Positions 3,801-24,579 of a stretch of DNA of 64,000 nucleotides are shown in pieces. Below the pieces are notes generated by a model. That model was not told where the DNA came from and did not search any database. It worked only from the letters and a program-made list of their open reading frames with translations. The DNA comes from Salmonirosea aquatica (GTDB lineage: Bacteria; Bacteroidota; Bacteroidia; Cytophagales; Spirosomataceae): assembly GCF_009296315.1 (NCBI RefSeq), contig NZ_WHLY01000002.1:4128501-4192500 (forward strand), given 5' to 3'. Made by a program: the position numbers and the translations under genes. Position 1 is the stretch's first letter, and each line of letters opens with the position of its first letter.

Positions 3801-4573
3801 TAGGTGGAAAAAATCAGTTCGGGATCAATCGTCAAATCGTGGGTACGGTCGTAACCGTTGGGCAAGGCAACCTGCACCTGCTTGCCCATGAGGGTGAAGC
3901 GGGCGTTGACTTCCCGGGTACGGCTATTGATTTCCTGAAAGGTATAGGGTTTGGCTTCCTTGAAAGAGCCGACGCTCGTTTTCACTTCAAGCTGTCCGGC
4001 CGAGTTTAGCAACAGTTCGTCTGAGCCATCGTAATCGAGCCCAATGCGGGAAGCATCCGCGCCGGGGTGGACGATAAACTCATACTTGATGGTGTACTCA
4101 TGGGCATAGATCCGAAAATCAATTCCCGGATATAGATTCTTGTAGTATACCTCCCCGAAACCTTCGGCCTGACTGGCCCAGCGGCTGGGATCATTGCCAA
4201 TGAAATAATTGTAGGAACTGCCATCGGGCCGGAGCCGCAAAAGCTGAGCATTGGGACTACTGCCCGCAAAATGTACCTCCACACCATGCGCCTTGATGAA
4301 AGTGGGAGAAGAAGCCAACCGGGCGCGGTCGTCGGTATCGGTCAGAGGCTGCGCCGCGTGGCGGGCCGAAAGTTCGCGCCCATCGTACAGCACATACACC
4401 AAAGACTGTTTTTTGAGAAAAAGAAAGCCGCCGGGGATCTCGGCGCGGAAAAGTACCTCCTGCTCCCATTGTCCCTTGTTTTGAATAAAACGCAACCCTT
4501 CGGCTGCCGCCATTCCCCCAAACCAAAGCCACACGATCCCGAGCAGACAAAGACGTTGTAAAAAATTGTTCAT
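866..4573 (-). CDS. large secreted SBBP-repeat/PKD protein with T9SS type B C-terminal domain
   Basis: A 1235-residue secreted protein. Order: signal peptide (about 1-24); an N-terminal domain with NKGQWEQEVLF typical of proteins that carry SBBP repeats; about six SBBP beta-propeller-like repeats (roughly 255-700, with recurring YSTFLGG or STYFGG followed by GDVYITG-type strands); a PKD domain (about 755-840, ending GEYTVTLRAFN); three similar Ig-like repeats (about 845-1090, each with an ASGG or SGG start and a TTYTVEA-type end); another PKD-like domain; and a gliding-motility-associated C-terminal domain (VITPNGDGKNDTF, YNRWGKQVF, NGTYFYEI). That last domain is the type B sorting signal of the type IX secretion system, so the protein is probably exported to the surface or medium. 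It is probably adhesive or structural; there is no enzyme motif. Confidence 0.88.
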   Translation of the reverse strand: MNNFLQRLCLLGIVWLWFGGMAAAEGLRFIQNKGQWEQEVLFRAEIPGGFLFLKKQSLVYVLYDGRELSARHAAQPLTDTDDRARLASSPTFIKAHGVEVHFAGSSPNAQLLRLRPDGSSYNYFIGNDPSRWASQAEGFGEVYYKNLYPGIDFRIYAHEYTIKYEFIVHPGADASRIGLDYDGSDELLLNSAGQLEVKTSVGSFKEAKPYTFQEINSRTREVNARFTLMGKQVQVALPNGYDRTHDLTIDPELIFSTYSGSLSDNWGHTATYDAQGDLYSGGTVFGVNFPVTIGAFQVQFGGQVDTGIMKFSHDGTLLMYSTFLGGNSTDIPNSLITNSKGELFIYGTTSSPNFATTGSAFQRSFGKGAGITPIDGLDLPNGSDMYIARLSADGKQLLAATYLGGSGNDALSTVQNVQIRNYGDTFRGEIVLDKDENVLVVSSTNSTNFPLKNAYQSTLQGRQDATISQLSPDLSTLQWSTYFGGGAYDAAFSIKPTPDGDVYITGITQSNNLPVQTGAYQNQLKGSEDAYVARFKNQQFQQVSYLGTDAADGAYLLDLDPSGNVHVLGLTRGNYPITNGVYSNANSGQFVHALDPTLSKSLFSTVIGSRKGTPDISPTAFLVNECGNIYIAGWGGSVNVRTAYNTQSSTNGMAVTEDALQRTTNGNNFYIAILEAGAKTLLYSTFFGSVSPPNPAEDRGDHVDGGTSRFDKNGVIYHAICACGGTRFPTTPKAWSRVNRSDNCNNAAFKIDIDRLKADFDVYEGTKKDVVQGCAPLKLNFLNTSLGGVDYIWEVNGSGFSRDEIQSEYTFENAGEYTVTLRAFNRLTCKKVDVATRKIVVKSLDTVTKGDTTVCHDVPVPLSVSGGTEYTWTPALGLDNPKSATPTAQVKETTEFNVEIKDAAFGCVVNKKVKVTIDDSKPDFLAGTDATICPGQSAPLTASGGATRYRWLADPTLSDSVGNKITATPIITTTYTVEAEYGDGCKPKKTVTITVEDNKPDFNVSPALLVCAGVPTELRASGAATQFVWKGDSTLNPTLGPVVSVSPAYTTTYTVQAQYADGCKPEKQVVVTVERNYEPLFDIATAGEACNEPTKYQFINRTQNADRYEWNMGTGPMLTTNDVKDRTFDRPGEYVVTLTAYNKAGCALTVAKTLNAAPPLVLPNVITPNGDGKNDTFVVPVSNSSLQVYNRWGKQVFQASDYQNNWGKSITNGTYFYEIVTPQGSRCKGWVQVLE

Positions 4574-23675: not shown

Positions 23676-23706
23676 TTGGTGATAAGAATTGGAACGCCTA
23701 TTTTTG
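23676..23706 (+). promoter_or_regulatory. Bacteroidota-type promoter of the interrupted tRNA gene
   Basis: A TTG at 23676-23678 lies 20 bases before TATTTTTG at 23699-23706, which is an exact match to the -7 consensus TAnnTTTG with the usual spacing. Transcription would start near 23713, about 16 bases before the tRNA 5' end. Confidence 0.6.
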
Positions 23707-23765
23707 CAATCCAAACTCGTCAAGAGTGGGGCCTATAGCTCAGTCGGTTAGAGCACCTGACTCAT

Positions 23766-24428
23766 CGGGCCAAGTTCTTTGAACAAATGGAAAGAAAGTG
23801 CATCGTTTGCCAAACTGCGATTAGTGGACAGAAAGTAAAGTATTGTTCCAATGCTTGTAAACAGAGAGGCCACTATTACAGAATAAAAGAGCAAGCCAAC
23901 ACCTATTTTTCTCAGACGCTAAGGTCTTTGAAAAGAAAGACGGAGTTGATTGCTTTAATGGGCGGAGGATGTGCCAATTGCGGATACGATCGCAATCTGT
24001 CGGCTTTGCACTTTCATCATGTAGATGCTGATTTGAAGCAATTCAAGTTGGATATGAGAGTCCTTTCTAACAAGAGATGGAACCTGATACTGGAGGAAGC
24101 CAAAAAATGCATTTTGCTTTGTTCTAACTGCCACGCAGAAGAACATAACCCCGAACTTTTCATTCCAAGTGTTCAACGAATTTTGCGCGGTGCCTCCGCT
24201 GAGGAATCAGCGGATGTGTAGGGGTTAATTCAGGGAAACCTTCCGGGTAGTGCCGATGGCAATCCTGAGCCAAGCCAGATAAAGGTCGATTTTGTAATCT
24301 GGAAGGTGCAGAGACTAAGGGGTGAGGAGACCACCAATACGCCCCTAACAACGCCCCCCACCCCATCCTCACCAAGGTGAGACGGGTGATGAGATAGTCC
24401 TACTACTCCGGGAAATCGGAGGAAAGTG
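23766..24428 (+). ncRNA. group I intron (self-splicing ribozyme, tRNA type close to IC3)
   Basis: A 663-nt intron. The 5' exon ends in U (CAU) and the intron ends in G, as group I introns require. P1: 23763-23777 pairs with 24178-24192 at 13 of 15 positions, including the splice-site U-G pair (23765 with 24190). P2: 24196-24202 with 24207-24213, GGAA loop. P3 candidate: 24217-24225 with 24341-24350. P4: 24230-24234 with 24264-24268. P6: 24275-24280 with 24297-24302. P7: 24313-24316 with 24396-24399. P8: 24359-24373 with 24376-24388. P9: 24406-24410 with 24417-24421. Core words CAGGGAAACC, GGCAATCCTGAGCCAAGCC, GGAAGGTGCAGAGACT and ATAGTCC closely match tRNA-Leu introns of cyanobacteria and plastids. 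Confidence 0.93.
23787..24221 (+). CDS. HNH homing endonuclease encoded in the intron P1 loop
   Basis: A 144-residue protein. An N-terminal zinc finger (C5, C8, C20, C24) is followed by an HNH nuclease fold: C62 and C65 in CANCGYD, HFHHVD with H77/H78, and CILLCSNCHAEEH with C112, C115, H116 and H120. Such enzymes cut intron-less copies of the target gene so that repair copies the intron in. The ORF starts 21 bases inside the intron, between the two strands of P1; its last 14 codons contain the P1 3' strand with the internal guide sequence, P2 and part of P3. All key residues are present, so it looks intact; activity is not proven. Confidence 0.9.
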   Translation: MERKCIVCQTAISGQKVKYCSNACKQRGHYYRIKEQANTYFSQTLRSLKRKTELIALMGGGCANCGYDRNLSALHFHHVDADLKQFKLDMRVLSNKRWNLILEEAKKCILLCSNCHAEEHNPELFIPSVQRILRGASAEESADV

Positions 24429-24470
24429 AATCAGGTGGTCCCAGGTTCGAGCCCTGGTGGGCCCACATCA

Positions 24471-24506
24471 AAAAAGCACCTAGCGTTGAGTCGCTAGGTG
24501 CTTTTT
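24471..24506 (+). terminator. terminator of the tRNA transcript
   Basis: A perfect 15-base stem (AAAAAGCACCTAGCG and its complement) with a six-base loop ends in five T, six bases after the tRNA discriminator base. Confidence 0.88.
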
Positions 24507-24579
24507 GTTTGATTTAAGCGGCATTTTCTTTGCATTTAACTACCCTATTTCTTCCTTCAAAAACTGAAAGACTGACGTT

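Follow-up and report, generated by a model that had tools for sequence, protein, structure and literature searches.

A mobile group I intron very probably interrupts what is apparently the sole tRNA-Ile2(CAU) gene of Salmonirosea aquatica, where it would splice itself out of the transcript and home by means of an HNH nuclease that it encodes. The window, meaning the whole stretch of 64,000 nucleotides analysed here (G000:C2:4128501-4192500), belongs to a 7.07-Mb host genome that is 99.99% complete, and the host family is apparently the one that also includes Runella. A tRNA gene at 23729-24465 is split by a 663-nt insert (23766-24428), which lies between U36 (23765) and A37 of a tRNA(CAU). When the exons at 23729-23765 and 24429-24465 are joined, ARAGORN folds them into a complete cloverleaf with anticodon CAT, as a reading made earlier from the sequence alone (the sequence-only reading) had expected of the two halves. 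The unspliced locus yields no tRNA call by ARAGORN, and a tRNA-Gln returned by its intron mode is spurious. The gene and its flanks contain the following features.

23699-23706, forward strand: putative Bacteroidota -7 element, TATTTTTG (TAnnTTTG), 22 nt 5' of the tRNA, read from the sequence
23729-23765, forward strand: 5' exon of the tRNA, most likely tRNA-Ile2(CAU), ending in C34 A35 U36 (ARAGORN spliced cloverleaf; unsplit at loci L129 and L130)
23766-24428, forward strand: group I intron of 663 nt with G (24428) as its last base (RF00028; 15 further introns at the same site)
24429-24465, forward strand: 3' exon of the same tRNA, ending at the discriminator A, with CCA not encoded (sequence; ARAGORN)
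24470-24508, forward strand: likely intrinsic terminator, an inverted repeat AGCACCTAGCG...CGCTAGGTGCT followed by a T run, read from the sequence

The label given to TATTTTTG is based on TAnnTTTG, which we take to be the Bacteroidota -7 consensus.

To characterize the insert, the window was searched for RNA families with cmscan. RF00028 matches at 24149-24422 over the full model length (62.6 bits, E 1.7e-13, above the gathering score of 50), and this is the single RNA family match in the whole 64-kb window. Together with a 144-residue HNH reading frame, the match upholds the sequence-only reading of a group I intron with an HNH ORF in a Bacteroidota tRNA(CAU) gene. An archaeal-type (bulge-helix-bulge) tRNA intron is ruled out by the 663-nt length and the full group I core.

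The same insert was also found in relatives, as 15 further introns at exactly the same CAU^A position, giving an alignment of 16. The set comprises the ORF-bearing introns of the window, Emticicia agri (L060), Runella zeae (L061) and R. limosa (L062), together with those of Hymenobacter frigidus (L063), Flaviaesturariibacter flavus (L064) and a Bacteroidia MAG (L065, the same as L032); the remainder are an ORF-less intron in a Runella-like genome (L035) and eight proteobacterial loci, mostly Gammaproteobacteria. Across the 16 introns, 96.3% of pair cells are paired (P1-P8, the P7 pseudoknot and the anticodon stem). Pairs changed on both sides number 27, versus 17.1 ± 1.7 in shuffles and 8-13 in slid versions, the slid control being biased because the structure was derived on the same alignment. 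Cells with double-sided changes number 120, versus 40.5 in shuffles that ignore relatedness, with 0 of 500 shuffles as high and with most relatives collected via the ORF and not via structure. The 15 same-position introns and this covariation exclude a chance fold. The insert has a conserved, P3/P7-pseudoknotted group I core, with these elements, and is predicted to be self-splicing.

23763-23766, forward strand: P1 5' strand, exon CAU plus the first intron base, invariant in the 16
24189-24192, forward strand: P1 3' strand, the internal guide sequence GGTG, invariant in the 16
24196-24213, forward strand: P2 hairpin, with 7 of 7 pairs changed on both sides
24220-24225, forward strand: P3 5' strand, partner 24353-24358, with double-sided changes in 2 of 6 pairs and 97.9% of cells paired
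24313-24317, forward strand: P7 5' strand GACTA, partner TAGTC at 24395-24399, invariant in the 16 (Rfam alignment)
24318-24349, forward strand: extra hairpin between P7 and P3', P7.1/P7.2-like, an insertion in the Rfam alignment

P1 pairs CAU-C with GGUG in every intron of the set, and in P4-P6 and P8, 98.8-100% of cells are paired. The U before the insert and the G at its end, singled out at first inspection (U 23765, G 24428), recur in all 16 as a U36.G pair at the 5' splice site and a terminal intron G. The extra hairpin is likewise present in 16 of 16 and absent from the Rfam consensus; its stem reads AGGGG/CCCCT in the window and AGAAG/CTTCT, GGAAG/CTTCC or CCTG/CAGG in relatives. A likeness to cyanobacterial tRNA-Leu introns had also been put forward. 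It holds as a general resemblance of the core, but the closest relatives found are introns at the same tRNA-Ile(CAU) site in other Bacteroidota and in Gammaproteobacteria.

Loop L1 of the intron holds the nuclease gene.

23787-24221, forward strand: HNH endonuclease ORF of 144 aa in loop L1, from an ATG at 23787 to a stop at 24221 (PHROG, AlphaFold, purifying selection)

The ORF matches a profile of HNH endonucleases (PHROG 2255, E 6.8e-20). Matches to Pfam HNH models are weak and below cut-offs, a PDB sequence search gave marginal matches only, NCBIfam has no family matching the ORF, and plasmid records contain no relative of it. In the protein, an N-terminal motif of four cysteines (C5, C8, C20 and C24) and a long helix precede the HNH domain, which is C-terminal and contains two CxxC pairs; H77, H78, N95, H116, H120 and both CxxC pairs are invariant among 18 aligned members. 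The AlphaFold model (mean pLDDT 88.5) is confident over the HNH motif, and its residues 43-127 align with Cap5 (Z 5.1) and a Geobacter HNH nicking enzyme (Z 4.8). Structural matches of the model are mostly HNH nucleases with modest scores, which supports the predicted HNH fold and no more. With pN well below pS and dN/dS of 0.05-0.16 where unsaturated (0.10 between R. zeae and R. limosa), the nuclease ORF is under purifying selection.

The position of the ORF is accompanied by a change in P1. P1 of the proteobacterial introns is closed by a loop of only 4-6 nt; in the Bacteroidota introns this loop accommodates the nuclease ORF, and P1 itself is extended, reaching about 14-16 pairs.

23767-23781, forward strand: P1 extension 5' strand, ending GTTCTTTG just 5' of the ATG and pairing with 24174-24188, several pairs being changed on both sides
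24174-24188, forward strand: P1 extension 3' strand, which also encodes the nuclease C-terminal (V/I)QRIL (pairing and coding)

The Runella extension pairs (A)AAGTTCTTTG with CAAAGAATTT(T) and ends directly before the ATG. The lengthened P1 probably holds the nuclease ORF away from the catalytic core. At its 3' end the ORF runs into P2 and P3, such that translation and folding would compete.

In the mechanism we envisage, the pre-tRNA would be transcribed as one unit, and the ribozyme would fold and set U36 against the guide GGUG in P1. The intron would then excise itself by cleavage behind U36 and behind its own final G, and TilS could convert the resulting normal tRNA so that it reads AUA. 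The HNH protein encoded in L1 would cleave one or both strands of intron-less tRNA-Ile(CAU) genes close to the anticodon, and repair from the interrupted copy would insert intron and nuclease gene together, with the split site immune.

As an observation apart, the leader GTTCTTTGAA 5' of the ORF (window 23774-23783) is common to the viral tRNA arrays L092, L093 and L094/L095 (about 3931-3948). These arrays repeat the boxA-like leader just behind TAnnTTTG promoter-like words, and a boxA-type antitermination role was considered for the GTTCTTTGA leader because of this repetition. Around those of the host's own tRNA genes that were examined, the GTTCTTTGA leader is absent (0 occurrences in 193 kb of strand), and TTTG-spaced matches in the host lie within coding genes.

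Relatives of the nuclease also occur outside introns. Gammaproteobacteria carry the same intron lineage with no internal ORF, and a divergently oriented gene of the same HNH family lies outside it, its start some 66-75 nt ahead of the interrupted tRNA. Among 147 genomes of one gammaproteobacterial family, 28 have the intron; the HNH gene is found in six, all beside the intron-bearing tRNA-Ile, and in 0 of the 119 others. The probability of this co-occurrence (6/28 versus 0/119) is about 3e-5 when genomes are taken as independent and kinship is ignored. In viruses, the nearest relatives (L092-L095, 56% identity) and that of a 636-kb uncultured phage (L096, 45% identity) are free-standing HNH genes no more than about 110 nt from a CAU tRNA, suggestive of a nuclease target that may coincide with the intron site.

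Collaborative homing, described in phages for F-CphI with the S-PM2 psbA intron and for mobE with the nrdB intron, offers a precedent in which a free-standing nuclease and an intron without a working one are proposed to move together and yield composite introns (PMC6083498, PMC2988022, PMC3984707). The gammaproteobacterial loci have the same layout, with a free-standing nuclease adjacent to an ORF-less intron. Whereas the phage systems involve protein genes and assayed cleavage, the present loci are cellular tRNA genes, and the presumed merged product, the embedded form, sits in another phylum. Our data fit the merger of a free-standing nuclease and an ORF-less intron into one mobile intron. 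Capture by the ORF-less intron seems likelier than escape, given how much more widely the nuclease is distributed as a free-standing gene next to tRNAs. We tentatively propose, with somewhat less than even confidence, a natural assembly series whose stages would be the CAU-tRNA-associated HNH family as it is seen free in viral tRNA arrays, beside the ORF-less gammaproteobacterial intron, and within L1 in Bacteroidota, where the matching P1 extension serves for pairing as well as for coding.

The opposite direction, in which the nuclease left the intron to give rise to the free-standing genes of Gammaproteobacteria, is given some room by an HNH tree whose deep branches are weak and whose root is uncertain. 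It is nevertheless unlikely, as relatives that stand free beside tRNA genes have a far wider distribution (viruses, candidate phyla, Acidobacteriota and Clostridia) and the copies within L1 form one clade (95/82) confined to Bacteroidota. If correct, the assembly series by capture would extend to cellular organisms the collaborative-homing route hitherto described in phages; the picture of how ORF-less group I introns come by nucleases has rested on a few phage cases. The intron at this one tRNA position is seen without a nuclease, beside one, with one embedded, with a broken one and after its loss, and empty alleles are seen as well. These states occur in culturable soil and water bacteria, namely Runella, Emticicia, Hymenobacter and Rhodanobacter, and a nuclease family found beside, inside or apart from the intron provides a route into how mobile introns are assembled.

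Distribution among relatives bears on mobility. ORF matches occur in 12 of 390 genomes of the order; eight are long, one of these being frameshifted and one bearing a stop. A phylum-wide sample gave only two distant ORF matches besides the window. An intact tRNA occupies the same locus, adjoining an HD-domain gene, in 23 of the 30 family genomes examined, and at L129 and L130 the unsplit tRNA is identical to the spliced exons of the window over the 72 nt compared. Sporadic presence (long matches in 8 of 390), with a tRNA that is mostly unsplit at the same locus, fits arrival by homing, as the sequence-only reading had proposed. Decayed forms are also present: the nuclease ORF has an in-frame TAG in L116 and a frameshift in L117, a 25-residue remnant lies beside an intron-bearing tRNA in L085, and L035 has lost the ORF completely, its remaining intron being 86% identical to the ORF-bearing intron of R. 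zeae. Broken and ORF-less copies would be expected from a homing decay cycle. One locus from a different family, L114 (family f5, an incomplete assembly), groups with Runella (97/93) inside a clade with the window and Emticicia, a placement in a moderately supported tree that suggests transfer across families. From this pattern we infer horizontal transfer of the intron between species.

An intron that splices but is immobile, passed on by vertical inheritance and with an HNH ORF that is inert or domesticated, for instance to help its own splicing, might also persist at the site. The ORF-less and broken-ORF copies in L035, L116 and L117 speak for such an intron, as they indicate that no ORF is needed for persistence. 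Strong purifying selection, intact catalytic residues in most copies, patchy occurrence across families and empty sites at the same locus tell against it, making immobility distinctly improbable. Rather, the embedded element behaves as a standard mobile group I intron.

The interrupted tRNA is most likely tRNA-Ile2(CAU). The other CAT tRNAs of the genome are two initiators (CGCGGGATGG... and CGTGGGATGG...) and one elongator (GGCGGGGTAG...). The acceptor stem of the interrupted tRNA has C4-G69 and C5-G68, which we take to be determinants for TilS; TilS is present in the genome (175 bits), and 12 AUA codons occur across four neighbouring genes. No second intact tRNA-Ile(CAU) was seen in the tRNA list of the genome or in a pattern search for an intact Ile(CAU) arm allowing ≤2 mismatches. 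The two own-genome matches to this pattern agree in number and strand with tRNA-Asn and tRNA-Thr genes. The list also contains no tRNA-Ile(UAU), and is incomplete, as judged by its lack of Ile-GAU and Ala-UGC, which are normally in rRNA operons. In 13 other host genomes there is again no intact second tRNA-Ile(CAU), and the one-mismatch matches there have anticodon CTT. The interrupted gene is thus apparently the sole tRNA-Ile2(CAU) copy, for which splicing is presumably essential, and it is very likely the only reader of AUA. That the locus, missed by tRNA gene finders, is instead a decaying pseudogene split by a dead insert, with AUA read by another tRNA, is scarcely credible given exons identical to intact genes of other genera in the family, a conserved ribozyme core, no other tRNA-Ile(CAU) or tRNA-Ile(UAU) found, the presence of TilS and the use of AUA codons.

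Among the closest known systems is the Azoarcus pre-tRNA-Ile intron, which also follows the CAU anticodon and has a GUG guide; introns of its subgroup, IC3, have a short P7-to-P3' junction without extra hairpins. The tRNA-Ile introns of Azoarcus, Acidovorax and Burkholderia interrupt the same tRNA as that of the window and are, to our knowledge, short and without an ORF. Unlike these proteobacterial introns, that of the window has an HNH ORF in L1 and a Bacteroidota host, and its extra P7-P3' hairpin may be a further difference. The cyanobacterial tRNA-fMet intron with I-Ssp6803I lies in a different tRNA, and its nuclease is of the PD-(D/E)XK family and hence not HNH. The tRNA-Ile2 introns of Acidovorax and Burkholderia were reported by the authors of tRNAscan-SE 2.0, who also list 36 genomes without fMet or Ile2 calls owing to such introns (PMC8450103). 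In genomes like the present one, probably the only tRNA that reads AUA thus escapes standard tRNA annotation. Bacteroidetes go unmentioned in a 2014 review of group I introns in bacteria, and in the literature searched, with subscription papers mostly outside it, no tRNA intron with an HNH gene is described from Bacteroidota, in line with the initial impression that such introns are little described. Phage T4 SegB is a free-standing homing nuclease encoded in a tRNA cluster, with its target in the tRNA region (PMC2988022). In contrast to the HNH nuclease of the window, which lies in an intron, SegB is a GIY-YIG enzyme with no intron.

Group I introns in tRNA-fMet, tRNA-Leu(UAA) and tRNA-Arg(UCU) are common in the family, with any match in 19 of 99 related genomes, so that finding a tRNA intron here is in itself unremarkable. 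Several related arrangements were noted. The tRNA-Arg(UCU) introns at L048, L049, L120 and L121 have an HNH ORF on the strand opposite to the tRNA, and at L118 an HNH relative is near an intact tRNA-Arg(UCU). Two tRNA-Leu(UAA) introns (L040:806-1348 and L046:1053-1580) contain a different HNH protein, with another N-terminal part and reading into the core, and at L123:1486-2026, in the same phylum, another tRNA (exon TCCGCGATAGCTCAATGGTAGAGCATGCGGC...) has a group I intron accompanied by a sense HNH ORF.

Beyond the family, a two-zinc-finger HNH relative is located immediately upstream of an intact tRNA-Ser(UGA) at 14 loci (L077-L084 and L086-L091), nearly all from candidate-phylum (CPR) bacteria and one binned as Burkholderiales. 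In the phage tRNA arrays of ALITA (L097) and SPLA5a (L098), distant HNH relatives directly precede tRNA-Pro and tRNA-Ile. In a Peregrinibacteria tRNA(CAU) (L067:324-977), the group I intron sits elsewhere, following U33, and comes with an antisense gene that belongs to the HNH family of the window. Finally, 5' of the interrupted tRNA-Ile of R. zeae (L061:2534-2911), a GIY-YIG-like ORF is found between two 93%-identical repeats, in each of which a broken 5' half of tRNA-Ile comes with a stretch resembling the start of an intron.
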